Assembly: GCF_018847975.1 (NCBI RefSeq)
Contig: NZ_CP072597.1
Span: 2,891,001-2,955,000 of the forward strand
From: Lysobacter sp. K5869
GTDB lineage: Bacteria; Pseudomonadota; Gammaproteobacteria; Xanthomonadales; Xanthomonadaceae
DNA: 64,000 nucleotides
Direction: 5' to 3'
Shown here: piece by piece, positions 1 to 14,554 of the stretch
How positions within the stretch are numbered: the first letter of the stretch is position 1
How the letters are laid out: each line of letters opens with the position of its first letter
The notes under the pieces: model-generated
What the model was told of the DNA's origin: nothing
Seen by the model: only the letters and a program-made list of their open reading frames with translations
Databases searched by the model: none
Program-made: the position numbers and the translations under genes

Positions 1-910
1 AGCCGTCGAGCTCGGTCAGGAATTGGCTCACCAACTTCGCCGAGGCCGACTCGCGCGAGTACTGGCGCTTGCCGCCGATGGCCTCGACCTCGTCGAAGAA
101 CACCACGGCCGGCGCCTGCTTGCGCGCGGTCTCGAAGATCGCATGCAGCTTGCGCTCGGATTCGCCGATATACATGTCCAGCACATCGGTGATCGCGACG
201 TTGAAGAAGCGCGCGCCGCATTCGCCGGCGGTGGCGCGGGCGAGCAGGGTCTTGCCGCAGCCCGGCGGGCCGTACAGCAGGATGCCGCCGCCGGAGCGGC
301 GCTTGAAGCGCTCGAACAGCGAGGGCTTGAGGAACGGGGTGACGATGCGGCGGCGGATCTGCTGCTTGACCTCGTCCAGCCCGCCGACTTCGGCGAAGCC
401 GATGCGCGCCTGCGCCGGTTGCAGCAGGCGGACCACGTCCTGCGCGTCGGTGTCGTCGTTGGCGATGCTGGTTTGCGCGCCCGCGCCGGGGCGGCGCGCG
501 GCGGCGAGCGAGATCACCTTGCCGCTGAGTTCCGACGCCAGCGCCGCGTCTTCCAGCGCCGGGTTGAGCGCGACGGCCTGTTGATAGAGCGAGCGCGCTT
601 CCTCGCGCGCGCCGTCGCCCAGGCGCAGGCGCGCGCGGGCGAACAGCGCGGCGGCCGAGTCGGGCGCGGCGACGAGCAGCACGCGTTCGTCGTCGCCTTG
701 GCGCAGCAGCAAGGCCAGCGCAGCGTCGCGGCGGGCCGGGTCGGCGAGCAGGGCGGGGCCGGACAGGTCCAGCGCGCGGCCCAGCGCGGCGGCGTCCGGC
801 GTGTTTAGGCAGGCGTCCACCACCAGCGTCGCCAGCGCCGGATTGGCCGGGCTGGCGGCGAGGGCGGCGAGCAGGCCGTCGAGCAATTCGTTCGGGGGCG
901 TATCGGGCAT
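1..910 (-). CDS. AAA+ ATPase of the CDC48/FtsH group (3' end beyond window)
   Basis: The visible part is residues 1-303, starting at the ATG whose complement is CAT at 908-910; the frame stays open to base 1, so the C-terminus lies outside the window. Residues 1-150 are Ala/Leu-rich and helical, with a TPR-like stretch at about 101-124. An AAA module follows: Walker A GPPGCGKT (214-221), Walker B VVFFDE (269-274), and a 'YIGESERKLHAIF' second-region pattern typical of CDC48, katanin and FtsH relatives. The family remodels or unfolds proteins using ATP. No membrane segment or zinc-protease domain is visible in this part. The gene is divergent from the MoxR operon across 273 bp, which suggests, without proving, that it belongs to the same system. 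Confidence 0.88.
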   Translation of the reverse strand, partial: MPDTPPNELLDGLLAALAASPANPALATLVVDACLNTPDAAALGRALDLSGPALLADPARRDAALALLLRQGDDERVLLVAAPDSAAALFARARLRLGDGAREEARSLYQQAVALNPALEDAALASELSGKVISLAAARRPGAGAQTSIANDDTDAQDVVRLLQPAQARIGFAEVGGLDEVKQQIRRRIVTPFLKPSLFERFKRRSGGGILLYGPPGCGKTLLARATAGECGARFFNVAITDVLDMYIGESERKLHAIFETARKQAPAVVFFDEVEAIGGKRQYSRESASAKLVSQFLTELDG

Positions 911-1041
911 GGCGGCATCCGGGCCGGCGAGGCGTGATCGAAAGGGCGGGGCGCAACGGGATCGCTAGGGTAACCAACCGCGCCGCCGGCCGGCGAGGCG
1001 CGCACAGCGCTGCGACGCTCACGATCCTAACGCGACGCGAG

Positions 1042-1071
1042 TTGCGGTTTCGCGCGGCCGGCGCCTACAGT
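1042..1071 (+). promoter_or_regulatory. Possible sigma70-type promoter of the MoxR operon
   Basis: TTGCGG at 1042-1047 and TACAGT at 1066-1071 are separated by 18 bp. This would place transcription start about 105 nt before the MoxR ATG. The 273-bp gap also has to hold the promoter of the divergent AAA+ gene, which I could not pick out. The call rests on hexamer similarity only. Confidence 0.3.
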
Positions 1072-1183
1072 GCGCGCGTGGCCGGCGCACGCGCGCGGCC
1101 GTTCCGATCAAACCCCAACGCCACGCCGCCGCGGCCGTTCCCGCCGCCGCCGCGCGCCGCCAAGGACTCAGGCCGCTCCCGTC

Positions 1184-2347
1184 ATGACTTCCAGTTCCGC
1201 CGCCCCGAACCCGGCCGCTCCCGATTCCGCCGCCCAGCAAGCCGCGGCCCGCGTCCGCGACGCCGCGCACGCGGCCACCGCCGGGCTGGTCGAGCGCGAA
1301 CAACTCGCCGAACTGATCGTGCTGGCGGCGGTGGCGCAAGAGCATCTGCTGATCCTCGGCCCGCCCGGCACCGCCAAGAGCGCGGTGGTGCGGCGTGTCG
1401 CCGCGGCGCTGGGCGGACGCTATTTCGAATACCTGCTGGGCCGCTTCACCGAACCCTCGGAACTGTTCGGCCCGGTCGATCTGCGCCGCCTGCGCGAGGG
1501 CGTGGTCGAGACCGACGTCAGCGGCATGCTGCCCGAAGCCGAGGTCGCCTTCCTCGACGAAGTGTTCCTGGGCTCGACCGCGATCCTCAACACCTTGCTC
1601 GGCGTGCTCAACGAGCGTCGCTTCCGCCGCGGCCACACCCAGATCGCGTGCCCGCTGCGCGTTTGCGTCGGCGCGTCGAACGCGCTGCCCGACGACGAAT
1701 CGCTGGCCGCGTTCGCCGACCGTTTCTTGCTGCACCTGTTCGTCGAACCGGTGCCGGACCATCAGCTCGAAGCGCTGCTCGCCGGCGGCTGGCAGGCCGA
1801 GCGCGCGGCCTTGTCGCATCAGGCCGAACTCAGCGACATCGACGAACTGAGCCGGCGCGTGCCGATGGTGGCGATGGAGCGCGCGCGCGGTTTGTTGGCG
1901 CAGGCGATCCGCAAATTGCGCGGCGCCGGGCTGAGCTTGTCGGACCGGCGCATCGTCAAAGTGCAGCGTCTGATCGCCGCGGCCACGGTGCTGGCCGGGC
2001 GCGACAGCGCGAGCGAGGCCGATCTGTGGCCGCTGTTCTACGTCATGCCCACGCGCGAAGCGCAGTTGGCCGCGCAGGAGGTGCTGCGCGATTCGCTCGC
2101 CGCCGCCGCCAATCCGACCTTGCGCGCGGCGGTCGAACACGCCGCGCTGCAGCCGGTTTCGCGGGTGGCGCGCTTGCTCGAAGCCGCGCGCAACTGTCTG
2201 GCCGGCGCGGCCGACGCGCCGGGCGCCGGCGTCATCGCTGAGGCGTTGCTGCGCGAGATCGACGCCAACTTCGACAGCGACCGCCTGCCGGCCGAACTGG
2301 CCGCCGAGCGCGCGCGTCTGGCCGAACGGGTGACGGCGGCGGCATGA
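1184..2347 (+). CDS. MoxR-family AAA+ ATPase of a ternary (vWA/beta-propeller) system
   Basis: The protein is 387 aa from the ATG at 1184; an upstream in-frame extension to 1070 is Arg-rich and looks non-coding. The MoxR/RavA-type AAA core is clear: Walker A GPPGTAKS (59-66), the 'GRFTEPSELFGP' loop, Walker B VAFLDEVF (121-128), and a sensor-like 'GASNALPDDESLAAFADRFLL' region. MoxR ATPases work as chaperone-like motors, usually with a von Willebrand A partner encoded next door, to insert cofactors or remodel complexes. The stop codon overlaps the start of the next gene (ATGA), implying translational coupling. The two downstream genes supply a vWA-like and a beta-propeller protein, which is why I assign it to the MoxR-vWA-beta-propeller class rather than to ravA. 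Confidence 0.92.
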   Translation: MTSSSAAPNPAAPDSAAQQAAARVRDAAHAATAGLVEREQLAELIVLAAVAQEHLLILGPPGTAKSAVVRRVAAALGGRYFEYLLGRFTEPSELFGPVDLRRLREGVVETDVSGMLPEAEVAFLDEVFLGSTAILNTLLGVLNERRFRRGHTQIACPLRVCVGASNALPDDESLAAFADRFLLHLFVEPVPDHQLEALLAGGWQAERAALSHQAELSDIDELSRRVPMVAMERARGLLAQAIRKLRGAGLSLSDRRIVKVQRLIAAATVLAGRDSASEADLWPLFYVMPTREAQLAAQEVLRDSLAAAANPTLRAAVEHAALQPVSRVARLLEAARNCLAGAADAPGAGVIAEALLREIDANFDSDRLPAELAAERARLAERVTAAA

Positions 2348-2763
2348 ACTGGGAGTGGGGCCCGGAACCGGAACCGCCCGCGCCGCAGGGCGCGGCCGGC
2401 GTCGGCCGCGCCGTCTCGCGCGCGTTGCTGGCCGCGGTGGAAGCGTTGGAACCGGCGCGGCGCGGCAAGCTCATGCTCACCGCCAACGCCGATGTGCTGG
2501 TCGCCACCGGCCCCGCCGCGGAACTGCCGTGGTGCGAAGGCGTGCTCTACATCGCTCCGCGCGAACCCGCGCCGGCGCTGTGGTTGCCGACCACGCAGCG
2601 CCCGCAATTGCCGCTGGATTTGCTGCAACGCGCGCTGGAGCGCCGCCACCGGCCCTCGCCGCTGCTGATGCTGCGCGAACCGGCGCAACTGGTGCCGCTG
2701 CACCGCGCGCTGCCGGCCAGCGACGAACTGATCGCGCAGATCCGCGCGCGCTGGCAGGACTGA
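2344..2763 (+). CDS. Small accessory protein of the MoxR/beta-propeller system
   Basis: The 139-aa protein starts inside the MoxR stop codon (ATGA overlap). It is soluble, with no signal peptide or membrane span. It shows a Trp-containing N-terminus, a central 'LPWCEGVLYIAPR' motif and a helical C-terminal half ending in WQD. I do not recognise an enzymatic motif. Position and size match the small accessory domains (bpX series) described for MoxR-vWA-beta-propeller ternary systems, and the LPW.xGV.Y pattern looks like bpX5, but that number is from memory and unverified. The next gene starts 5 nt after its stop, so it is certainly part of the operon. Confidence 0.75.
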   Translation: MNWEWGPEPEPPAPQGAAGVGRAVSRALLAAVEALEPARRGKLMLTANADVLVATGPAAELPWCEGVLYIAPREPAPALWLPTTQRPQLPLDLLQRALERRHRPSPLLMLREPAQLVPLHRALPASDELIAQIRARWQD

Positions 2764-2767
2764 GCGC

Positions 2768-4624
2768 ATGCGCCTGCCCGCGACCCTGGCGCCCTGGCGG
2801 CAGTGGCTGGACTGGTTCGACCCGGACCTGGCCGGCGCGCTCGGCGACGTCTTGCTGCGCCTGCATCCGTTGCTCGGCGCGTTCCGCCTGCGCGCGCTGC
2901 GCGGACGCAGCGAGCCCGAAGGCATCGACGACCTGCGCCGGCGCGGCAGCTACGAACGCCTGCTGCTCAGCGAGTGGGCGCTGGCCGACGCCGCGCCGGA
3001 AGAATTCGACCGCCGCGCCGCCGGCGGCGAGCATTTGTTCCTGAGCCCGAAACTGATCGCGCGTCAGGCCGACGCGCTGACCGTGGCGGTGTTCGACAAC
3101 GGCCCGGCGCAACTCGGCGCGCCGCGTTTGTTGCATATGGCGTTGTGGATTTTGTTGGCGCAGCGCGCGCAGGCGGCGAAGGCGCGGTTCTTGTGGGGCG
3201 TGCTGAGCGCGCCGGGCGAACTGTTCGAGGCCGATTCGGAGGAGCGTTTGCGCGAGTTGTTGAGCGCGCGGACATGGCGGTTCGGCGAGAGCGCCGGCGG
3301 CTCGGCGCAGGCGCGCGCGGCGCTGGAGCAGGAATGGGCGCGTTGCCTGGATGGCTTGCAGCCGAGCCCGAGCGAGCGCTGGTCGATCGGCGCGCCGGGC
3401 GCGGGGCATGGCCTCGGCCATCGCGTCGGCATCGGCGCGGCGCAGACCGGCGAACTGACGGTGACGGTGAGCGCGGCCAGCGCGCGGCGCGAGGCCACGC
3501 TGGCCTTGCCCGATCCGGCGCGGGCGAAGCGGTTGCTGCACGGGCTGTTCGTGCTGCAGCCGGGGACGGTGGCGGCGGTCGATGAGATCGGGCCGGTGCG
3601 GGTGGTGCGGGTGGCGCGCAAGATTTCGCTCAAGCAGCCGCCGCTGTTGTCGCCCAACGGCTTGTCGGTGGCGGTGCCGCTGCTGAACGAGCACGCCGCG
3701 CACTTGCACCGGCTGGCGGGCCGGCGCCGGCTCGAAGAGCCCCACCATGCGCCGTACTTATGGTCGTTGGTGGCGGCGACCATCCACACGCACAGGCTCG
3801 GTGCGTGCTTGATCGGCGATCGCCAGGTGGAGTTCCGCTCGTTGCCCGGATTCGCCCGCGGTCCGTTGCCGCCGCAGCTGAATCACCGGCCCGAACGCGG
3901 GCGTTGGCTGCCGATGATCTGGGTGCAGCCGATGGACGCGCGCGCCAGCGGCCGGCACAAGCCGCAGCCGGAACTGTTCCTGCTCCACGCTGGCGCCCTG
4001 TGGCGTTGGCGTTCGCAGGACGCCGGCCTGGATCCGCAGACGTTCGCGCCGTTTGCGCGCGACGTGCTGGCGATCGCGCCGATGCACGAAGCCTGGGTGG
4101 ACTACCTGCGCTTGCACGGCGGCAGCCTGCAGATCGGCACCAGCCGCAACGGTCACGGCCAGCGTCCGGTGGCCCAGGTCGATTGCGCCGGCGAGGCGCG
4201 ATCGGGCTGGCTGGCCGTGCAGCGGGTCAAAGGCCTGTATCGCCACGTCGCGGCGGTGGAGCTGCGCGTCGGCGGCCACGGCGGCGACCGCGCCGGGGCG
4301 TGGCGGGTGCTGCAATGGGACAACGGCGCGGTCGCGGTGGATTTCGAGATCATCCTACCCAGCGAATGGAAGGTGATCGGCGTCGACGCGCCGCGCGACG
4401 GCGGACCCGCGCTGATCGCGATCAACCCCGACCGCACGGCGCTGCTGTCGCTCGGCGAGAAGGAGCGCCGCACCCTGTACCGGTCCGCGGCCCGGCTCAG
4501 CGTCGGCAGCGTCGCCGGCGGCGGCGAGACCATCGCCCTGATCGACCTCGACGGCCGCCTGGTGGTGTTGCACGAACGCGGCGCCAGCATCACGATCTAC
4601 GCCGGGGGGGAAGGCGATGGTTGA
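2768..4624 (+). CDS. vWA-like plus beta-propeller protein of the ternary system
   Basis: The protein is 618 aa, with its ATG 5 nt after the upstream stop. Residues about 95-170 ('TVAVFDNGPAQLGAPRLLHM' followed by an alternating helix/strand region) resemble a von Willebrand A fold. The metal-binding DxSxS is replaced by DNGPA, so the site is degenerate. From about residue 220 to the end the chain is a run of short beta-strand repeats with recurring W/L-DxDGxL endings, consistent with a beta-propeller. In this class of system the vWA protein bridges the MoxR motor and a sensor or effector, and the propeller is thought to bind a target. The fold call is by eye from residue pattern; no signal peptide is present, so the protein is cytoplasmic. 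Confidence 0.7.
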   Translation: MRLPATLAPWRQWLDWFDPDLAGALGDVLLRLHPLLGAFRLRALRGRSEPEGIDDLRRRGSYERLLLSEWALADAAPEEFDRRAAGGEHLFLSPKLIARQADALTVAVFDNGPAQLGAPRLLHMALWILLAQRAQAAKARFLWGVLSAPGELFEADSEERLRELLSARTWRFGESAGGSAQARAALEQEWARCLDGLQPSPSERWSIGAPGAGHGLGHRVGIGAAQTGELTVTVSAASARREATLALPDPARAKRLLHGLFVLQPGTVAAVDEIGPVRVVRVARKISLKQPPLLSPNGLSVAVPLLNEHAAHLHRLAGRRRLEEPHHAPYLWSLVAATIHTHRLGACLIGDRQVEFRSLPGFARGPLPPQLNHRPERGRWLPMIWVQPMDARASGRHKPQPELFLLHAGALWRWRSQDAGLDPQTFAPFARDVLAIAPMHEAWVDYLRLHGGSLQIGTSRNGHGQRPVAQVDCAGEARSGWLAVQRVKGLYRHVAAVELRVGGHGGDRAGAWRVLQWDNGAVAVDFEIILPSEWKVIGVDAPRDGGPALIAINPDRTALLSLGEKERRTLYRSAARLSVGSVAGGGETIALIDLDGRLVVLHERGASITIYAGGEGDG

Positions 4625-7388
4625 TGCGTCCGGCGCGCAAGTGCGTTATCCGGTCTGGCGCGGCCAGCAGGCCGTGGCCGGGCTGTGGCTGCCCGCGGAT
4701 TGGCTCGACGCGCGACAGCGCGGCGAGCGCCTGCTGCGCTGGTGGGCGCCGGGCTGCCGCGCGTGGCGTTTCGAGAGCGGCGCGGCGCGCGGCGATCTGC
4801 TGCGCTTCGAGGGCGAACGCGCCTTGCACTGCGAACGCATCGGCGCCACGCCGTTGTGCCGGATCGGCGCGCACGGGCTTTACGCGGGGCCGCTGACCGA
4901 ACGCGAGCGCGAAGGCTTGGCGCCGGCCGATGTGCGTCTGGTGCTGGGCGGGCGGTCGGTCGCGTTGGATTTGAGCGAAGGCGAGGCGTTGGATCCGTCG
5001 CTGGCGATCGATCTGGACGCTTACGCCTTGCACGACACGTTCGCCTGCGATCGCGCGCTGCCGAAGTTGGGCGCGGACCTGCTCGCCGGCAAGAACGTGC
5101 GCGACGTGCTCGGCGGGCGCATTCCGCCGCCGAGCGAGGAGCGCAAGCGCTTCCTGCGCGCGCTCGGCCGCGACGGCGGCGGCGACGGGCCGACGAGCGT
5201 GGGCGAACGCGCGGTCGCGTGGCGCGACGGCGCGGCGGCATGGCTGTTGCGTCGGTTTCCCGGATTGGCCGGCGACAGCGCGAGCGGCGCGGGGAAAGCG
5301 AACGCTGCGCAAGCGTCCGGCGGCGGCGTCGCCGCGCGCGCGCAGTCGCCGCGCCCGCAGCGTTGGCGCGCGGCGCTCGCGCGCATGGCCGCGGCGAGCG
5401 GCGCGGCGCGGTTGATCGGCCTGCGCCAGGGCGCGTACCTGCGCCGCCTGATGGAACAGTTCGACCGCGGCGACCTCATGGAAGCGCTGCGCCATGCCTT
5501 GCCCATCGACGGCGACGGCGGCGATTCGCTCGGCCAAGCCTTCGGCACGCCGGGCCGGCGCGCGGATCTGCGCATCGGCGCGCAACGCGGCGCCGGCGCG
5601 AGCATCGGCGCGGGCGACGACATCCGCGAGTCGCTGCGCCAGCGTTATCGGCAAGCGTTCGAGCGCCTGGACCGGCAAGGCCGCGTCGACGAAGCGGTGT
5701 TCGTGCTCGCCGAATTGCTCAGCGCGCGCCAGGAAGCGCTGGATTACCTGCTCAAGCACGAACGCGCGGCGCAGGCCGCGGAACTGGCGCTGGGCTGGGA
5801 CATGCCCGCCGACACGATCATCCGCCTGCTGTTGTTGGCCGGCGACCGCGAGCGCGCGGTGATGGTGGCGCGCCGCGACAACGCCTTCGCCGCCGCGGTG
5901 GCGATGCTGGAAGCCAAGCGCGACCAAGCGGGGCACGCGCTGGCGCTGCGCCGCGAATGGGGCCGCGCGTTGGCCGCGCAAGGGCGCTGGCTGGAGGCGG
6001 TGGACGCGGTCTGGCCGGACGCCGATCCGAACTCGGATTCGCGCGAAAACGCCGGCCGCTGGTTGCAGGCGGCGGAAGCCGGCGGCGCGGAATTGTCGGC
6101 GCGCGCCCTGGTGCAGCGCGCCAGCCTGTTGCCCGACACCATCAAACACTACGCCGCGCGCATCGACGCCTTGGCCGACGCCGACGCGCCCGCCGGCGCG
6201 CGCGAAGCGCTCGGGCTGGCGCTGGCCGGCTGCGCGCAAGGCAACGCCGCGCTGGCGCGGATCGCCGCGCGCACGCTGCCGGCGCTGGCGGCCGACCGCG
6301 CCGGCGGCGCCAACGCGCTGGAACGCGCGCAGTTGGAGCGGATCCTCAAGCTCGCCGACGATCCCTGGCTGGCGGCCGATCTGCCGACCTGGAGCCTGCC
6401 GTCGGCGCCGCGCGCCGCGCCGCTGTGGGACCGCACCGAACCGCTGCAGCTGCGGATCGAGGACGCCGCCGGCATCCAGCCGCCGCTGGATCTGGCCGCG
6501 CTCGGCGAGGGCCGCTGGCTGGCCGCGTTGGGCGAGGCCGGCGCGGCGGTCTACGACGCCGCCGGCCGCTGCCTGCGCCGTTACGCGGTGCCCGCGCACC
6601 GGCTGGTGATCGGCGACAGCGGCGAGGTCGCGCTGGCGCTGGCCAAGCGCGATTCGGTGTGGCGCATCGCCCGGCTCGATCTGACCCGGCACGGCATCGA
6701 CGACCTCGGCGCGATGCCGCTGCCGTTCTTCGCCGACCGTTTCGACGGCATCGCCTGGTCGGTGGCGACGCCGCAACGCATCGTCGCGCTCGACGCCGGC
6801 CCGCCGGCCGCGGGCGCGCGGCCGCTGGAGGTGTTGTGGAGCGTCGGCGATCTCGGCGGGCAGATCGTGCAGGCGCGGTTCCTGCGCCACGACGAACTGT
6901 TCCTGGTCGCCGGCGCCGGCGCCACCTCGGTCTGGCATTACCGCACCCATCCCAACCGCGCGCTGGTGTCGCGCGAGGCGGTGGAGCTGGAAACCCACGG
7001 CACCTTGCTCGATCCGCACAACGTCGTCAGCGACGTGCGCTTGCAGGTCGACGACTCCGGCGCGGCGCGGTTCTCGTTCCGCAGCATGCAGCGCGAGTGC
7101 GCGATCGACCTGGAGCCGGTCGAGCCCGGTTGCGGCGACTGCGGCGGGCGCGTGCTGCCGCTGGCGCGTGGCTTCGTCGTCGTGCTGCACGGGCGTACGC
7201 GCATGCGCGCGCACCTGATCCGCCGCGGCGACCAGCCGCGGGCGCGCTGCGTGGCGCGGATCGATTGGCCGCTGGGAACGTTGCGCGCGCGCGAGCAGCC
7301 GGAACGGGTGGTGTTGTTCGACGAGCGCGGGCGGGCGTTGAGCTTGGGGGTGGGGAATTCGCAGGCGCGGGCGGTGCAGGTGCTTTGA
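4617..7388 (+). CDS. Large bpX6-like protein with helical repeats and C-terminal beta-propeller
   Basis: The protein is 923 aa and its ATG lies 8 nt inside the previous gene. Residues 1-110 carry a 'PVWRGQQAVAGLWLPADWL' start and a 'GDLLRF' element that I associate with the bpX6 domain of MoxR-vWA-beta-propeller systems. Residues about 120-230 are low-complexity and Ala/Arg-rich. About 310-590 is an alpha-helical repeat region of TPR-like pairs. About 610-920 is a beta-propeller with repeated blade-like units ending in short hydrophobic strands. No catalytic motif is visible. As the last gene of a four-gene overlapping operon it is the likeliest recognition or scaffold subunit. Domain limits are approximate and the bpX6 name is from memory. 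Confidence 0.75.
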   Translation: MVDASGAQVRYPVWRGQQAVAGLWLPADWLDARQRGERLLRWWAPGCRAWRFESGAARGDLLRFEGERALHCERIGATPLCRIGAHGLYAGPLTEREREGLAPADVRLVLGGRSVALDLSEGEALDPSLAIDLDAYALHDTFACDRALPKLGADLLAGKNVRDVLGGRIPPPSEERKRFLRALGRDGGGDGPTSVGERAVAWRDGAAAWLLRRFPGLAGDSASGAGKANAAQASGGGVAARAQSPRPQRWRAALARMAAASGAARLIGLRQGAYLRRLMEQFDRGDLMEALRHALPIDGDGGDSLGQAFGTPGRRADLRIGAQRGAGASIGAGDDIRESLRQRYRQAFERLDRQGRVDEAVFVLAELLSARQEALDYLLKHERAAQAAELALGWDMPADTIIRLLLLAGDRERAVMVARRDNAFAAAVAMLEAKRDQAGHALALRREWGRALAAQGRWLEAVDAVWPDADPNSDSRENAGRWLQAAEAGGAELSARALVQRASLLPDTIKHYAARIDALADADAPAGAREALGLALAGCAQGNAALARIAARTLPALAADRAGGANALERAQLERILKLADDPWLAADLPTWSLPSAPRAAPLWDRTEPLQLRIEDAAGIQPPLDLAALGEGRWLAALGEAGAAVYDAAGRCLRRYAVPAHRLVIGDSGEVALALAKRDSVWRIARLDLTRHGIDDLGAMPLPFFADRFDGIAWSVATPQRIVALDAGPPAAGARPLEVLWSVGDLGGQIVQARFLRHDELFLVAGAGATSVWHYRTHPNRALVSREAVELETHGTLLDPHNVVSDVRLQVDDSGAARFSFRSMQRECAIDLEPVEPGCGDCGGRVLPLARGFVVVLHGRTRMRAHLIRRGDQPRARCVARIDWPLGTLRAREQPERVVLFDERGRALSLGVGNSQARAVQVL

Positions 7389-7680: not shown

Positions 7681-9696
7681 TCAGGGAAACACCTTGATCT
7701 GCTGATCCGCCTTGCGCACCATCGCCGTCCCCGCCTTGCAGCCGAACGCTTCGCCGAACGCCGGCAGGTTCGACAGCGGGATGTTGGTGCGCCACTGGCC
7801 CGGCGCGTGGATGCCCGAGGCCGCGCGCTGCGCCGCGGCTTCCGGGCTCAGCTGCTGCGCCCACACGCCGGCCCAGGCCTTGAAGAAGGACTGGTTGGCG
7901 TCCTTGTTCGCCGCCGGCTGGGCGGCGCGGTAGGCCGACCACGCCAGCTCGACGCCGGCCTGATCGGCGATGGCGACTTCGCGCACCTGATTGCCGTTGA
8001 CCTTGACCGAGCTCAGGCCCGGCCAGGATTCGGCGCTGTACTGCGCGGCCACGCGCGCGGTCATCGCGTCCCAGGCCGACACTTCGGTCGGAGTCCACCA
8101 GTCGCGCACTTCCTGCTTGGCGTCGACGTAGCGGCCGCGGCTGTCGAAGCCGTGGGTCAGCTCGGCGCCGACCAGGGCGCCGAAGGAACCGTACTGCGCG
8201 GCTTCGCCGCGGCTCATGTCGAGCACCGGCGCCTGCAGCATCGCCGCGGTCACGATCAGGCGGTTCTGGGCGATGTCGTAGGCCAGCGACGGCTCCTGCG
8301 GCAGCACGTCCCAGCGGCGGTCGGCGTTGCCGCGGCCGATGCGCTTCATCTCTTCGCGGTGGCGCCAGGTCGAGGCGATCAGCATGTTGCTGCCGAAGCT
8401 GCCGCGGCCCATCGGCTGCACGGTGTAGTCCAGATCGCGCTTGGGCGTGCCGACTTCGATCTTGAGCTTGCCGAGCTTGGCGCGCGCTTCGTTCTTGGCG
8501 CTGTCGCTGAAGCGGGTGTCGGCGTCGATCGCCTTGCCGAGCGCTTCGCGCACTTGCTGGGCGATCTGCTCGGCGCGCTGGTCGGTGGCGGCGGGCAGGT
8601 AGCGCGCGGCGTATTCGTGGCCGACCATCGGGCCGGCGGCGAGGGTGATCGCGTCGAGCACGGCCTGCTGGCGCGCGGGCTGTTCGCGTTCGCCGCGCAG
8701 GATCTTGCCGCGGAAATCGAACTCGGCGTCGCGGAACGACTTGGCCAGATACGGCGCCATCGAATCGCCGACGCGCCAGCGCAGATAGGTCTTCCACTGG
8801 TCCGGCTTGAGCTGGTCGATCAGCTTGTCCATCTCGGCGAACAGCGCCGGGTTGGCCATCGACACGCTGTCGTCGCTGACGCCCTGGGCCTTGAGGAAAT
8901 CGCCGAGCTGCAGGCGCTTGTAGGTCTTGCCCAAGGTGTTGGTGGCGACCGGCGCATAATTGGCGAGCGGATCGCGCAGCGCCGACAGCGGCTTGGAGGC
9001 GCGGGCGAGGCGGGTTTCCAGATCGATGACCAGCTGCGACTCGGCCGCGAGCTTGTCCTTCGGCGTGCCGGTTAGGGTCAGGATCTTCTGCACGTAGACG
9101 TTGTACTGCGCCAGCAGCTGGCGGGTGTCGTTGTCGGTGCGGGTGTAGTAGGCCGGATCCGGCAGGCCCAGGCCGCCCTGGCTGAAGTAGCCGATGTGGC
9201 GTTCCAGGTCCTTCAGGTCGATGTCGGCGCCGAAGTTGAACAGCACCGGGATGCCGACCTGATGCAGCGCGGCGATCGAGGCGGGGATGTCCTTGGACTT
9301 CTTGATCGCGTTGATGCGGCCCAGCAGCGGGGCGATCGGCTGCGAGCCGTCGCGCTCGACCGCGGCTTCGTCCAGGCCGCTGGCCCAGAAGTCGCCGAGC
9401 AGCTTCTGCACGTTGCCCTGCGGCGCGGTCATCGCGGTGTTGAGCAGTTCCAGCTGCTGGCGGCGCGCGTTGTTCGCCAGGGTCTCCAGCGCGGAGACCG
9501 AGGCGGCGCCGGACAGCGGGTTGGCGCGCAGCCAATCGGCGTTGGCGTTGCCGTAGAAATCGGTGCAGGCGTTGGCGACGGCCGGGGCCTTGGACTTGGG
9601 CGCGGCCTTCTTCTTGGCGGCGTCGGCGGCGGGCGAGGCCAGGCCGGCGATGAGGCTTAGGGCGAGGGCGCAGGCAAGCGGGCGTAGGGTCGACAT
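7681..9696 (-). CDS. M13 (neprilysin-type) peptidase homologue, probably inactive
   Basis: The protein is 671 aa from the ATG at 9696, 11 nt after an AGGA; an alternative start at 9708 has no room for a ribosome site. It has an N-terminal signal peptide (MSTLRPLACALALSLIAGLA) with no lipobox, then a full-length M13 fold collinear with the two upstream paralogues. The key residues are changed. HExxH reads AELTH (511-515), with GCC in place of the first His codon. The GENIAD element carrying the third zinc ligand reads EVAIAD, putting Val574 where Glu should be. The substrate-binding NAYY is replaced by LAYD, and the family's C-terminal Trp is missing. The frame is intact, so this looks like a maintained pseudoenzyme rather than a pseudogene. 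It is the last of three same-strand M13 genes. Confidence 0.9.
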   Translation of the reverse strand: MSTLRPLACALALSLIAGLASPAADAAKKKAAPKSKAPAVANACTDFYGNANADWLRANPLSGAASVSALETLANNARRQQLELLNTAMTAPQGNVQKLLGDFWASGLDEAAVERDGSQPIAPLLGRINAIKKSKDIPASIAALHQVGIPVLFNFGADIDLKDLERHIGYFSQGGLGLPDPAYYTRTDNDTRQLLAQYNVYVQKILTLTGTPKDKLAAESQLVIDLETRLARASKPLSALRDPLANYAPVATNTLGKTYKRLQLGDFLKAQGVSDDSVSMANPALFAEMDKLIDQLKPDQWKTYLRWRVGDSMAPYLAKSFRDAEFDFRGKILRGEREQPARQQAVLDAITLAAGPMVGHEYAARYLPAATDQRAEQIAQQVREALGKAIDADTRFSDSAKNEARAKLGKLKIEVGTPKRDLDYTVQPMGRGSFGSNMLIASTWRHREEMKRIGRGNADRRWDVLPQEPSLAYDIAQNRLIVTAAMLQAPVLDMSRGEAAQYGSFGALVGAELTHGFDSRGRYVDAKQEVRDWWTPTEVSAWDAMTARVAAQYSAESWPGLSSVKVNGNQVREVAIADQAGVELAWSAYRAAQPAANKDANQSFFKAWAGVWAQQLSPEAAAQRAASGIHAPGQWRTNIPLSNLPAFGEAFGCKAGTAMVRKADQQIKVFP

Positions 9697-9777
9697 CGCG
9701 TAATCCATCCTGAGGAGGCGCGAGTTTAACAATCCGGCGTGGGATGGCGGTGAATGGGGTTGGGGGAGAGCAGAAGC

Positions 9778-9933
9778 GGGAACAGGGAGTGGGGAACAGG
9801 GAATGGGATGGGCGTCGCCGTTCGGAGCGCCACGGGCCGTCCAAGACCGTCGTCCTCGACGCAGCGGCAGATCGCGGGAAACACCATCCAAGCCCGTTCC
9901 TCACCATTCCCCGTTCCCTGTTCCCCATTCCCG
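9778..9933. repeat. Heptamer-word inverted repeat (GGGAAYRGG type)
   Basis: The left arm at about 9778-9808 is a run of GGGAACAGGGAGTGG-like words; the right arm at about 9904-9933 is their complement (CCATTCCCCGTTCCC). Roughly 95 bp of ordinary sequence separates the arms. Related elements occur at 12317-12440, 16199-16326 and 46030-46122, always between genes. Confidence 0.7.
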
Positions 9934-9938
9934 GCTCC

Positions 9939-9970
9939 AAAAACAAAGGCCCGGGGAAATCCCCGGGCCT
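9939..9970 (-). terminator. Rho-independent terminator of the second M13 gene
   Basis: AGGCCCGGGG (9947-9956), a 4-base AAAT loop and CCCCGGGCCT (9961-9970) form a perfect 10-bp stem. On the minus strand it is followed by a T-rich tail, 44 nt beyond the stop of the gene ending at 10014. Confidence 0.88.
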
Positions 9971-10013
9971 TCGTCGATCCAGCGGCTTCGGCGCAATCAG
10001 CGCGCCGCAGCGA

Positions 10014-12134
10014 TCACCAGATGATCACCTGCTTGTCGCCCTCGCGCACCATCGGCTGACCGGGCTTGCACGAGAACGCCGCGGCGAACGCCGGCAGGTT
10101 CGACGGCGCGCCGATCGCGCGGAAGTTGGCCAGCGCGTGCTCGTCGGTCTGCAGGCGCATCTTCTCCTCGTCCGGGGTGAAGTTGCGGCGCCACACCGTG
10201 GCCCAGTTGAGGAAGAAGCGCTGGTCGCGGGTCAGGCCGTCGGTCTTCGGATCCGGGGTCTCGCCCGCGGCCTTCTTCATCGCGTCGTACGCGGTGGCCA
10301 GGCCGCCGAGGTCGGCGATGTTCTCGCCCAGGGTGTGGGTGCCGTTGACCTTCTGCCCGCCGATCGCGGTGTAGCCGTCGAACTGCTTGATCAGCTTGCC
10401 GGTCAGCGCCGAGAACGCCGTGGCGTCGGACGGCGCCCACCACACTTCCATGTTGCCGGTCGGCCCGAAGCGCGAGCCCTGGTCGTCGTAACCGTGGGTC
10501 ATTTCATGGCCGATCACCGCGCCGATGCCGCCGTAGTTGGTGGCGTCGTCGGCCTTCGGGTCGAAGAACGGCGGCTGCAGGATGGCGGCCGGGAACACGA
10601 TCTCGTTCTGCAGCGGGTTGTAGTAGGCGTTGACCGTCTGCGGGCTCATGCCCCATTCGGTCTTGTCCACCGGCTTGCCGACCTTGCTGAGGTTCCACTT
10701 GTAGTTGAACTCGTTGGCCGCCTTGACGTTGGCGTAGTAGCTGTCGCGGTTGGTGTTCAGGCCGCTCCAGTCGCGCCACTTGTCCGGGTAGCCGATCTTC
10801 GGGGTGAAGCTCGCCCACTTCTCCAGCGCCTTCTTCTTGGTGTCGGCGCTCATCCACGAGAGATTTTCGATGCGGCCCTTCAGCGCCTGGCGCAGGTTCT
10901 CCACCAGCGCCTGCATGCGCTGCTTGGATTCGGCGGGGAAGGCGACCTTCACGTACAGCTGGCCCATCGCTTCGCCGGCCTGGCCTTCGATGGTGGCCAT
11001 CACGCGCTTCCAGCGGTCCTTGATTTCCTTCTGGCCGCGCAGGGTCTTGGAATAGAAATTGAAGTTCTCCTGCACGAACGCGTCGGACAGGAACGGCGAG
11101 GCGCCGTCGATGGCGTGGAAGCGCAGGTAGGCCTGCCACGTGGCCGCCGGGGTGTCGGCGATCATCTTGCTGACTTCCTCGTGGAAGCCCGGCACCGCCA
11201 GCGAGAACATCTTCGGCAGCGCCACGCCCTGCGATTCGAAGAACTTGGTCCACGAGAAATTCGGGGTCAGCTCGTCGGCCTTGGCCGGGCTGATCGGGTT
11301 GTAGTACAGCGAGACGTCGCGCGAGAGCTGCTCGCGGGTCTTGGAGGCCTTGGCCAGACGGGTTTCGAACGCGATCACGTCCTTGGCCTGCTTGGCGGCG
11401 TCCTCGGGCTTGGCGCCGCCGAGTTCGAGCACCTTGGCGATGTGCGTCTCGTACGCGGCCAGCTTGTCCTTGTGCTTGGCGTCGGTGTAGTACGGCGCGT
11501 CCGGCAGGCCCAGGCCGCCCTGCGAGGCGTAGGCGATGTTGTTGGCCGAATCCTTGAAGTCGGCTTCGGCGCCGAAGCCGAACAGCGGGTTGTCGCCGGT
11601 GGCCGCGGTGTCGCGCAGATAGGCGGCGATCTTCTCGGGGCTGTCGACGGCGTCGATCTTGGCCAGGTCGGCCTTCAGCGGCTCGATGCCCTGAGCGTTG
11701 ACCTTGGCCTCGTCCATGCCGGTGGCCCACAGGTCGCCGACGATCTTGGTCACGCCGGTGGCCTTGGCGTCGGCCGCGGCCTGTTCGGCGAGCTGGTGCT
11801 GCACGCCATTGGAGCGCTCGTCGAGCATTTCGAACGCGCCCCAGGAGGTGCGGTCGCCCGGGATCGGGTTGGCCGCGAGCCACTTGCTGTTGGCGTAGCC
11901 GGTGAAGTCGACGCAGGCGTCCTTGCTGCTGTCCAGGTCGGCGATGGCGAAGCGGTTGACCGCCGGCAGCTTGCTCTCGTCGAGCTTGAACTCGGTGGCG
12001 GCTTCGGCCGGCTTGGCGGCGGCCTGATCGGCCGGGGCGCCCGCGGCGGGGGCTTCGGTTTTGCCGCCGCACGCCGCGACGGCGGTGGCGATGGCGACGG
12101 ACAGCAACAGGACTTGCGGTTTCTTCAGGGTCAC
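10014..12134 (-). CDS. pepO: M13 family metallopeptidase, lipoprotein
   Basis: The protein is 706 aa and starts at a GTG (complement at 12132-12134) with GGAG six bases upstream. It is a type II lipoprotein with lipobox TAVAAC (Cys22) followed by an Ala/Pro-rich linker, so it is membrane-anchored on the periplasmic side. The M13 signature is complete: NAYYNP (502-507), HEMTH (543-547), GENIAD with zinc ligand Glu604, and a C-terminal Trp. The neprilysin/PepO family cleaves oligopeptides on the amino side of hydrophobic residues. It is about 75 percent alike by eye to the neighbouring 701-aa copy, pointing to tandem duplication. The symbol reflects the family; orthology to PepO of other species was not tested. 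Confidence 0.95.
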   Translation of the reverse strand: MTLKKPQVLLLSVAIATAVAACGGKTEAPAAGAPADQAAAKPAEAATEFKLDESKLPAVNRFAIADLDSSKDACVDFTGYANSKWLAANPIPGDRTSWGAFEMLDERSNGVQHQLAEQAAADAKATGVTKIVGDLWATGMDEAKVNAQGIEPLKADLAKIDAVDSPEKIAAYLRDTAATGDNPLFGFGAEADFKDSANNIAYASQGGLGLPDAPYYTDAKHKDKLAAYETHIAKVLELGGAKPEDAAKQAKDVIAFETRLAKASKTREQLSRDVSLYYNPISPAKADELTPNFSWTKFFESQGVALPKMFSLAVPGFHEEVSKMIADTPAATWQAYLRFHAIDGASPFLSDAFVQENFNFYSKTLRGQKEIKDRWKRVMATIEGQAGEAMGQLYVKVAFPAESKQRMQALVENLRQALKGRIENLSWMSADTKKKALEKWASFTPKIGYPDKWRDWSGLNTNRDSYYANVKAANEFNYKWNLSKVGKPVDKTEWGMSPQTVNAYYNPLQNEIVFPAAILQPPFFDPKADDATNYGGIGAVIGHEMTHGYDDQGSRFGPTGNMEVWWAPSDATAFSALTGKLIKQFDGYTAIGGQKVNGTHTLGENIADLGGLATAYDAMKKAAGETPDPKTDGLTRDQRFFLNWATVWRRNFTPDEEKMRLQTDEHALANFRAIGAPSNLPAFAAAFSCKPGQPMVREGDKQVIIW

Positions 12135-12316
12135 AGCGGGCTCCGGCCGTAAGGCGTAGGCGAGTAACGAGGCGAGGATTGTGGCCGATTTCGGGCAGAC
12201 ACGTTTTGCTCAGGAGCGCACGCGCGCCCCGCGCATCGGGCGGACGATAGTCCCGCGGGCCGCGCCCGCAGGGTGTCGAAGGTCATGTGTGACGGTTTCG
12301 TAATGCTTGGAAGAGC

Positions 12317-12440
12317 GGGAATGAGGGGAAAGGAGGGAGCGGGGAATGGAAGGGGTTTCGCCCGTTCATGCTCAGCGGCGCGCCCGCGCCGACGAATCGC
12401 CCCCACCATTCCCTTCTTTCCCTGTTCCCCTCATTCCCCT
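12317..12440. repeat. Heptamer-word inverted repeat between M13 genes
   Basis: The left arm (12317-12355) reads GGGAATGAGGGGAAAGG and similar words; the right arm (12405-12440) is its complement (CCATTCCCTTCTTTCC). It begins 9 nt beyond the stop of the third M13 gene on the minus strand, where no ordinary terminator is visible, so it may itself stop transcription. Confidence 0.65.
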
Positions 12441-12448
12441 GCCTCACC

Positions 12449-14554
12449 TCACCAAATCACCACCTGCTTATCCGCGTCGCGCACCATCGGCTGCCCCGGC
12501 TTGCACGAGAACGCGGTGGCGAACGCGGGCAAATTCGACGGCGCGCCGATCGCGCGGAAATCGCTCGGGGCGTGCGGGTTGGAGGCGATCAGCACCTTGA
12601 GCAGGTCCGGCGTGTAGCGGTCGCGCCAGCTCATCGCGAAGCTCAGGAAGAAGCGCTGATCGCGGCTCAGGCCGTCGGTCTTGGGATCGGGCTGGTCGCC
12701 CACGGCCAAGCGCATCGCGTCGTACGCGGTGGCGAGGCCGCCGAGGTCGGCGATGTTCTCGCCCAAGGTCAGCTTGCCGTTGACCTTGAGTCCGGGCGCC
12801 GCTTCGTAGCCGTCGAACTGTTCGATCAGCTTCTGGCTGCGCGCGGCGAAGCCCTTGGCGTCGGCCGGCGTCCACCAGTTGACCATGTTGCCGGTCGGGC
12901 CGAAGCGCGAGCCCTGGTCGTCGTAGCCGTGGATCATCTCGTGGCCGATCACCGCGCCGATGCCGCCGTAGTTGGTGGCGTCGTCGGCCTTGGGATCGAA
13001 GAACGGCGGCTGCAGGATCGCCGCCGGGAACACGACTTCGTTCTGCAGCGGGTTGTAGTAGGCGTTGACCGTCTGCGGGCTCATGCCCCATTCGGTCTTG
13101 TCCACCGGCTTGCCGATCTTGCCCAGGCTCCAGCGGTAGTTGAACTCGTTGGCGGCCATGACGTTGGCGTAGTAGCTGTCGCGGCCGGTCGCAAGGCCGC
13201 TCCAATCGCGCCACTTGTCGGGATAGCCGATCTTGGGCGTGAAGCTCGCCCACTTCTCCAGCGCCTTCTTTTTCGTCTCCGCGCTCATCCACGACAGGTT
13301 CTCGATGCGCGCCTTCAACGCGGTGCGCAACTGCTGCACCAAGGCCTCGGTGCGCGCCTTGGCTTCGGCCGGGAACGCGACCTTGACGTACAGCTGGCCC
13401 ATCGCTTCGCCGGCTTGCCCGTCGATGCCGCCGAGCACGCGCTTCCAGCGCGCCTTCGGCTCCTTCTGCCCGCGCATGGCCTTGGCGTGGAACTCGAAGC
13501 TTTCCTGCACGAACGCGTCGGACAGATACGGCGAGGCCTCGTCGACCGCGTGATAGCGCAGGAACGCGCGCCAGGCGTCCAACGGCGTGTCGGCGATCAT
13601 CTTGCTGACTTCCTTGTGGAAGTCCGGCATCGCCAGCGAGAAGCTCGCCGGCGTCGCCACGCCTTGCGACTGGAAGAACTTCGTCCACGAGAAATTCGGC
13701 GTCAGCTCGTCGGCCTTGGCCGGGCTGATCGGGTTGTAGTACAGCGCGACATCGCGCGAGAGCTGCTCGCTCGACAGCGACACCTGCGCCAGGCGGGTCT
13801 CGAATTCGACCACGGCCTTGGCCTGCTTTTCGGCGTCGGCCGCGTTGGCGCCGGCGAGTTCCAGCACCTTGGCGACGTGCTTGCGGTAAGCGTCGAGCTT
13901 GTCGCGCTTGTCGGCGTCGAAGTAATAGCCGCGGTCGGGCAGGCCCAGGCCGCCTTGCGAGGCGTAGGCGATGTTCATCGCCGAGTTCTTGAAATCGGCC
14001 TCGGGCGCGAAATCGAACAGCGGGTTGCGGCCGTGCGCGGCGCTCTCGCGCAGATACGCGGTGAGCTGTTCGGGCGACTGCACCGCCTCGATCGCGGCCA
14101 GTTCGTCCTTCAACGGCGCGATGCCTTGCGCGTTGATCTTGGCCTCGTCCATGCCGGTGGCCCACAGGTCGCCGACCAGTTTCTCCACGCCGCCGGCCTT
14201 GGCGTCGGCGGCGGCTTGTTCGGCGAGTTGGCGCTGGATCGCCAGTGAGCGCTCGGCGAGCACGTCCGACACGCCCCACGAGGAGCGGTCGCCGGGGATC
14301 GGATTGGCCGCGAACCACTTGCCGTTGGCGTAGTCGCTGAGGTTGTCGCAGGCGCTCTTGCCCGCATCCAGATCGCTCAGGGCGAAGCGCACCGGCTGCG
14401 GCAGCTTGGATTCGTCGAGCTTGAGTTCGGCGGCCGCGGCGGGCGCCGGCGCGGCTTGCGGCGCGGCCGGGGCGGCGGGCTCTGGCTTGGCGCAGGCGGC
14501 CACGGCGGCGGCGACGGCCAGCGGCAACAGCAGGTGGCGGGGGCGGACGGTCAT
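12449..14554 (-). CDS. M13 family metallopeptidase, lipoprotein (second active copy)
   Basis: The protein is 701 aa from ATG (complement CAT at 14552-14554) with GGAG upstream. Lipobox AVAAC (Cys21) leads into a Pro/Ala linker. Active-site elements are intact: NAYY (497-500 region), HEMIH (538-542) and GENIAD with Glu599. It is very similar to the copy at 10014-12134, including 'TPNFSWTKFF' and 'WASFTPKIGYPDKWRDWSGL' blocks. It is a periplasm-facing, membrane-anchored zinc endopeptidase. It is the first gene of the minus-strand trio, with 314 bp of repeat-bearing DNA before the next, so the three are probably transcribed separately. Confidence 0.95.
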   Translation of the reverse strand: MTVRPRHLLLPLAVAAAVAACAKPEPAAPAAPQAAPAPAAAAELKLDESKLPQPVRFALSDLDAGKSACDNLSDYANGKWFAANPIPGDRSSWGVSDVLAERSLAIQRQLAEQAAADAKAGGVEKLVGDLWATGMDEAKINAQGIAPLKDELAAIEAVQSPEQLTAYLRESAAHGRNPLFDFAPEADFKNSAMNIAYASQGGLGLPDRGYYFDADKRDKLDAYRKHVAKVLELAGANAADAEKQAKAVVEFETRLAQVSLSSEQLSRDVALYYNPISPAKADELTPNFSWTKFFQSQGVATPASFSLAMPDFHKEVSKMIADTPLDAWRAFLRYHAVDEASPYLSDAFVQESFEFHAKAMRGQKEPKARWKRVLGGIDGQAGEAMGQLYVKVAFPAEAKARTEALVQQLRTALKARIENLSWMSAETKKKALEKWASFTPKIGYPDKWRDWSGLATGRDSYYANVMAANEFNYRWSLGKIGKPVDKTEWGMSPQTVNAYYNPLQNEVVFPAAILQPPFFDPKADDATNYGGIGAVIGHEMIHGYDDQGSRFGPTGNMVNWWTPADAKGFAARSQKLIEQFDGYEAAPGLKVNGKLTLGENIADLGGLATAYDAMRLAVGDQPDPKTDGLSRDQRFFLSFAMSWRDRYTPDLLKVLIASNPHAPSDFRAIGAPSNLPAFATAFSCKPGQPMVRDADKQVVIW

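Follow-up and report, generated by a model that had tools for sequence, protein, structure and literature searches.

The four-gene cassette examined here lies on the plus strand at 1184-7388 of a 64,000-nt stretch of Lysobacter sp. K5869 (NZ_CP072597.1, positions 2,891,001-2,955,000; this whole stretch is the window, and cassette coordinates are window positions) and encodes a bpMoxR ATPase, a bpX5 protein, a 618-aa protein and a bpX6 protein. We found that the C-terminal beta-propeller of the 618-aa protein is exchanged between related genomes, which otherwise retain similar N-terminal domains of this protein and similar copies of the remaining three genes. The genomes compared were species representatives, and "related genomes" therefore means related species. 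Propeller swapping is a new finding of this analysis; no earlier statement of it was found in the literature searched, most subscription papers lying outside its coverage.

Loci L177 (genome G302) and L182 (genome G288) shared 99% amino-acid identity in MoxR, 96% in bpX5 and 94% in the N-terminal domain of the 618-aa protein, whereas their 618-aa propellers were 46-47% identical; within bpX6, identity was 92-93% in the bpX6 domain, 93% in the helical region and 88% in the bpX6 propeller. The synonymous distance (dS) was 1.11 in the 618-aa propeller, compared with 0.09-0.27 in the other parts of the cassette. Nucleotide identity was 92-99% up to about 2.3 kb of the cassette, dropped to 43-70% over about 1.1 kb, and recovered near the bpX6 start to 84-98% over most of that gene (one 100-base stretch: 81%). 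The window's locus showed the same pattern less sharply against L016 (N-terminal domain: 80%; propeller: 38-41%; bpX6 domain, helical region and propeller: 73-84%), and the N-terminal parts of L179 and P0033 were 98% identical compared with 47% for their propellers.

Genome contigs were scanned with a 65-sequence alignment of the 618-aa protein, and 80 of the 110 loci found were kept. The pairwise comparison covered 81 loci and 201 non-independent pairs with MoxR identity of at least 85%, and excluded 11 of the 80 loci (L017-L020, duplicates of genus genomes; L027, L044, L057 and L091-L094, several of them short). Of the seven parts compared, the 618-aa propeller had the lowest conservation in 168 of the 201 pairs. 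For 33 Lysobacter-type sequences, the N-domain and propeller trees conflicted, and five of six approximately unbiased (AU) tests rejected the grouping of the other half (p 0.007 to 8e-70). The N-domain data rejected L177+P0012+P0022 (p 0.0012) and P0032+P0033 (p 0.007), and the propeller data rejected P0033+L179+L180 (1.6e-6), P0022+P0030 (1e-39) and the eight-row L177/L182 group (8e-70). Within the propeller, conservation in 20-residue bins was lowest at residues 361-500 (0.25-0.40, compared with 0.39-0.64 in the rest of 281-618). A search with the window's propeller for a second copy hit one place in each of six Lysobacter genomes, suggesting that donors would be other lineages; the same search found none in two Massilia-group genomes that carry such genes and is thus blind at that distance.

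Tandem copies were found in the Massilia genus group, where the gene was present in 8 of 17 genomes, five of these eight carrying at least two copies. One locus of Massilia rubra (L074, G412) holds a single MoxR gene, four 618-aa-type copies, a propeller-only open frame and then bpX6; the G412 record name gives a coverage of 6, and assembly errors are possible there. The copy pairs of G431 and G418 lie on contigs of 7.4 Mb. Full-length copies at the same locus (G412, G418, G421, G431) were 83-96% identical over residues 1-130, 46-54% over residues 131-258 and 33-38% in the propeller, the exception being G412 v2 and v3 (residues 131-258: 88%; propeller: 71%). Copy b of G418 and G421, at the same position, was 96% identical over residues 1-130 and 54% in the propeller, compared with 93% for the propeller of copy a. 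The first copy of G412 (L074:5342-7036) lacks an internal N-terminal stretch and the most conserved N-terminal motif, and that of G423 (L202 from 6144) matched only from about residue 96, its upstream part lying outside the comparison. These two first copies were 81% (residues 131-258) and 77% (propeller) identical to each other, a likeness suggesting that they are perhaps kept for a purpose.

The cassette and the gene facing it comprise the following features:

1184-2347, plus strand: bpMoxR AAA+ ATPase, 387 aa (PF20030, 308 bits; P-loop GPPGTAKS, Walker B FLDE)
2344-2763, plus strand: bpX5 protein, 139 aa (PF19921, 161.7 bits)
2768-4624, plus strand: gene of the 618-aa protein (no Pfam match at E<=1)
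2768-3547, plus strand: N-terminal constant domain of the 618-aa protein, residues 1-260 (family alignment, AlphaFold2 model)
3578-4621, plus strand: C-terminal beta-propeller of the 618-aa protein, residues 271-618, the variable, swapped module
4617-7388, plus strand: gene of the bpX6 protein, 923 aa, the third component
4641-5162, plus strand: bpX6 domain, residues 9-182 (PF19922, 207.8 bits)
5616-6380, plus strand: helical-repeat (TPR-like) region of the bpX6 protein, residues 334-588 (consecutive helices in the AlphaFold2 model)
6444-7385, plus strand: C-terminal beta-propeller of the bpX6 protein, residues 610-923, 28 strands
1-910, minus strand: opposing AAA+ ATPase, 454 aa, of which the window covers the first 303 (PF00004, 141.3 bits for the full length); assigned to a separate module and judged to lie outside the cassette

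The MoxR reading frame is open at 1070-2347, and the ATG at 1184 was taken as its start. A first-pass annotation of this DNA had described genes packed with 4-8 bp overlaps, which was correct for MoxR/bpX5 (4 bp) and the 618-aa gene/bpX6 (8 bp) but not for bpX5 and the 618-aa gene, separated by a 4-bp gap. Its calls of a MoxR ATPase and a large bpX6-like protein were confirmed, the small protein being bpX5 (Pfam cut-off of 27 bits for each of the three families), and the profile search it had proposed for all four proteins left the 618-aa protein without a family. Single matches to bpX6 and bpX5 were found in the window's genome. Pfam searches with 65 aligned members of the 618-aa family gave stray matches only, any one family in at most 2 of 65 at E<=0.1, and a PDB sequence search returned nothing for the single 618-aa protein, one match at E 0.36 for the profile of alignment A1 and none for A2. 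Among 81 aligned copies, the GPPGTAKS P-loop was present in 76 MoxR proteins and FLDE in all 81, the window's copy included; a combined sensor 1 and arginine finger pattern matched 0 of 81, and as the pattern was judged poor, no inference was drawn.

AlphaFold2 models and fold searches placed a C-terminal beta-propeller in both large proteins, in agreement with the earlier description of the bpX6-like protein as a propeller protein and answering the structure prediction suggested for the pair. The modelled 618-aa propeller has 27 strands in about seven blades and is probably seven-bladed. The bpX6 protein consists of an N-terminal globular domain, helical repeats and the propeller (Pfam, AlphaFold2 model, fold search), with no TPR match in Pfam for the helical region. 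A hydropathy scan detected no membrane segment in the window's bpX6 or in nine listed Lysobacter-titled copies, and one or two such segments in many Pseudomonas, Variovorax and Chromobacterium copies. The N-terminal domain of the 618-aa protein, modelled as helices followed by an alpha/beta part that carries FDxGxxQ, a motif present in 77 of the 81 aligned copies, occupies the vWA position, and its predicted element order is compatible with vWA. An hhalign comparison found no match between this domain and alignments of CoxE or Bat type, which matched each other at 95.8%; these separate sets replaced an initial mixed vWA alignment. The propellers filled the fold-search results, and the N-terminal domains of both large proteins were thus barely probed. 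The first-pass label of a vWA-like/propeller protein held for its propeller half, and its vWA half was not confirmed; some vWA domains of propeller ternary systems are described as divergent (Kaur et al. 2020, PMC7159879, cited throughout from the accessible part of its text).

The four genes were detected in the same order in 74 of the 80 loci (tblastn), which bears out the conserved co-occurrence that had been proposed as a check. Of the six incomplete loci, L027, L044, L091 and L092 are short or cut and lack between one and three genes; in L089 and L094, bpX5 was not detectable. By record titles, the loci belong to Lysobacter, Xanthomonas and relatives, Pseudomonas, several Betaproteobacteria and Myxococcota, and other phyla are represented by single metagenome-assembled genomes. 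By rough gene calling, the only families common to most loci were MoxR (75/80), the 618-aa protein (78/80) and bpX6 (75/80), the small bpX5 having been called as one family in only 25 of 80. The next commonest family, LysR-like by sequence, occurred at 16 of 80 loci in scattered positions, and flanking families recurred only within small groups of loci. Median spacing was -1 bp for MoxR-bpX5 (36 measured, 17 of them -4), 2 bp from bpX5 to the 618-aa gene (69 measured) and -7 bp from the latter to bpX6 (44 measured). Neither bpX6 nor bpX5 matched any of 14 control genomes, indicating that the cassette match is not due to chance, whereas PF20030 passed its cut-off in 12 of the 14; the bpMoxR model alone is thus not diagnostic, and annotations by PF20030 alone overcall the system. 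The cassette is patchily spread: of 299 genomes searched in the order, 6 have bpX6. A similar set (ravA, a bpX5 domain, an entry named 6ND4 and a bpX6 domain) is listed for a region of genome plasticity of Pseudomonas syringae in the accessible part of PMC9677677. In L083, recorded as Xanthomonas phaseoli, the match to the 618-aa homologue is broken into separate segments, and the gene has an interrupted look.

The opposing AAA+ gene runs on the minus strand from 910 to beyond position 1 of the window. The two genes that follow it encode a 159-aa protein containing several hydrophobic segments and a 310-aa TPR protein containing a single one. This AAA-transmembrane-TPR (AAA-TM-TPR) module corresponds to L095:4138-6910 (partly window 1-910) and is also seen cassette-free in stretches from eight other genomes. 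In a survey of 20 genus genomes, the AAA protein (at least 74% identity) was found in 15 and bpX5 in 16; 15 genomes carried both the AAA gene and the cassette, 4 neither and 1 (G304) the cassette only. The two stood head-to-head in 14 of the 16 cassette-bearing genomes and lay about 194 kb apart on one contig in G309. Only six of the 80 loci showed the module, all of them Lysobacter and all records of six of the same genus genomes; it was not seen at the other 74, some of which end early upstream. Across the order, AAA matches at E<=1e-55 occurred in 15 of 398 genomes, 11 of them outside the genus; eight of these 11 were covered by the bpX6 search and none had bpX6, three of the eight (G011, G078, G237) matching mainly over the AAA part. 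G291 has the AAA gene and bpX6 on different contigs, and the AAA-bearing G355 and G338 lay outside the bpX6 search set.

The cassette-free order of AAA, small membrane protein and TPR protein was found in fetched stretches of G309, G355, G059, G338, G291 and G003, and by gene call and tblastn in G177 and G034. A rough gene call placed an M13 peptidase gene 36-126 bp from the AAA gene in G309, G355 and G059, with no cassette between; in the window's genome the cassette sits between these two genes, and G304 has M13 peptidase, cassette and rhomboid gene at this site but none of the AAA, TM and TPR genes. The occurrence of the module without the cassette, and of the cassette without the module, indicates that the two are separable and does not support the first-pass proposal that the facing AAA+ gene would make a two-motor system. 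The cassette was most likely inserted beside an older, pre-existing AAA module.

Three long open reading frames resembling M13-family peptidases adjoin the cassette on the minus strand (window 7681-14554); the first is Pfam-confirmed, the other two are assigned only by the look of their translations. Outside the window, L095:1960-2964 encodes an RHS-repeat-end-like protein that may contain a metallopeptidase motif; its gene is flanked by the TPR and rhomboid genes and grouped with no gene of 14 other loci compared. The 303-aa window part of the AAA+ protein scored 52.9 bits against the anti-phage ATPase IetA/IteA (NF042959), below the cut-off of 510. We also considered that the membrane proteins of the AAA-TM-TPR module offset the loss of the bpX6 membrane segment; this was unsupported, as both the module and a linker membrane segment are missing from the Xanthomonas loci, two of which (L021 and L029) have a weak hydrophobic stretch at residues 108-117.

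The whole is best explained, at a probability of about 0.55, by a ternary cassette in which a MoxR-driven machine uses the 618-aa propeller as its interchangeable part for recognition. MoxR would form an ATP-driven ring, onto which the 618-aa protein would dock, perhaps via bpX5, by its constant N-terminal domain in the vWA position. The 618-aa propeller would bind a target differing between lineages, bpX6, with its helical repeats and its own propeller, would serve as scaffold or output component, and ATP hydrolysis would remodel the complex upon propeller occupancy. An N-terminal domain that stays in step with MoxR, combined with a freely exchanged propeller, fits a recognition module, and a changing target fits a conflict role, for example invader sensing, better than a fixed housekeeping client; such a role for the cassette is putative. 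Somewhat short of even odds, bpX5/bpX6 cassettes may be motor-driven innate immune receptors in which one MoxR motor serves a constant docking domain and the ligand-binding propeller is swapped by recombination between lineages, some Massilia offering alternative propellers in tandem arrays. Should recognition lie in the swapped propeller, the ligand question becomes directly testable by comparing natural alleles, since these differ in a single 1-kb segment.

Several results count against this explanation. One of the six AU tests did not reject its grouping (P0006+L015+L119, p 0.20), and the groups were picked after the trees had been inspected. The closest Xanthomonas pairs showed no propeller excess (L022/L026: 93 vs 93-99; L028/L061: 99 vs 95-99) and Pseudomonas pairs showed little (L062/L065: 89 vs 90-99; L054/L063: 74 vs 77-98), indicating that swapping is not seen everywhere. 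The lack of a vWA profile match for the N-terminal domain points the same way. No defence-island signal was detected in 138 flanking proteins, drawn from 222 eligible ones (120-700 aa, rough gene calls) at 17 of 29 chosen loci with no control set; PADLOC at E<=1e-10 gave RtcR-type matches in two and single matches to MzaA, PDC-M42C and mad3, and the 25 commonest of 139 flanking Pfam families were ordinary. Among the cassette proteins, MoxR matched PADLOC models weakly only (best E 0.0094) and the other three not at all at E<=1. Carriage was limited to one weak match (27% of the query) in 72,556 plasmid records and 0 in 50,697 phage records, and this near absence counts against a defence role. 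No experiment on any bpX system was found in the literature searched.

Three rival explanations were weighed. A weakly constrained propeller that simply drifts, with neither exchange nor a recognition role, would agree with its being the least conserved part in most pairs, and propellers tolerate sequence change; drift, however, does not give a several-fold rise in dS over one 1.1-kb stretch with sharp edges, nor well-supported conflicting trees, and we consider it improbable. An assembly chaperone of the RavA/ViaA kind, its propeller tracking a rapidly changing partner of the cell's own (a surface structure, for instance) and having no anti-invader role, is a possible but rather unlikely account. 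It would suit the bpMoxR score of 165.5 bits to RavA, the ordinary flanking families, the near-nil plasmid and phage carriage, and the fact that MoxR-vWA pairs of known role assemble complexes (PMC7159879), but patchy distribution and variable flanks are unsuited to housekeeping, and domain exchange with divergent alleles and tandem copies suggests many targets. Joint action of the MoxR cassette and the opposing AAA-TM-TPR genes is marginally more improbable still than drift: the co-occurrence within the genus and the head-to-head arrangement favour it, as do FtsH ternary systems that pair MoxR with a second AAA+ protein (PMC7159879), yet the module was unseen at 74 of 80 loci (with the early upstream ends noted above), eight AAA-bearing genomes of the order lacked bpX6, and G309, G355, G059 and G304 show one without the other at the M13 peptidase site.

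The cassette is a MoxR-vWA-beta-propeller ternary system of the bpX5/bpX6 type, a known kind (Kaur et al. 2020), and the first-pass assignment to these systems held in families, propeller folds and gene order. The shared traits are the bpMoxR type with its TAKS P-loop, the third-component architecture and the gene co-occurrence at 74 of 80 loci; subsystem 4 MoxR proteins often carry a GXXXTAKS P-loop, and the system is reported from Xanthomonas and Pseudomonas, among others (PMC7159879). Kaur et al. call the propeller systems enigmatic, with no conventional effector, and report a membrane-spanning segment in their third component. In subsystem 4, the first propeller has about four blades, compared with 27 strands in about seven here; a membrane-spanning third component is reported, whereas the window's bpX6 shows no membrane segment; and a vWA component is described, which is not confirmed for the 618-aa protein. 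Variability there is placed in the N-terminus of the third component, whereas within the genus the most variable part is the 618-aa propeller. FtsH ternary subsystem 3 resembles the window in having MoxR and a second AAA+ protein nearby, but its third component contains two FtsH-type AAA domains, while the neighbour here has one and is separable from the cassette (PMC7159879). RavA-ViaA of Escherichia coli likewise joins a MoxR-family motor to a vWA partner (PMC7159879), whereas the window's bpMoxR falls far below the NCBIfam RavA cut-off (165.5 vs 681 bits) and shares its operon with bpX5 and bpX6. In VMAP, a variable domain on a vWA protein is proposed as a sensor signalling through MoxR, and a diversity-generating retroelement mutates its C-type lectin domain (Dore et al. 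2024, accessible part of PMC10907252), whereas the propeller here is swapped by recombination; if recognition does lie in this propeller, its domain exchange would join the retroelement route proposed for VMAP among the ways in which bacterial MoxR systems diversify.

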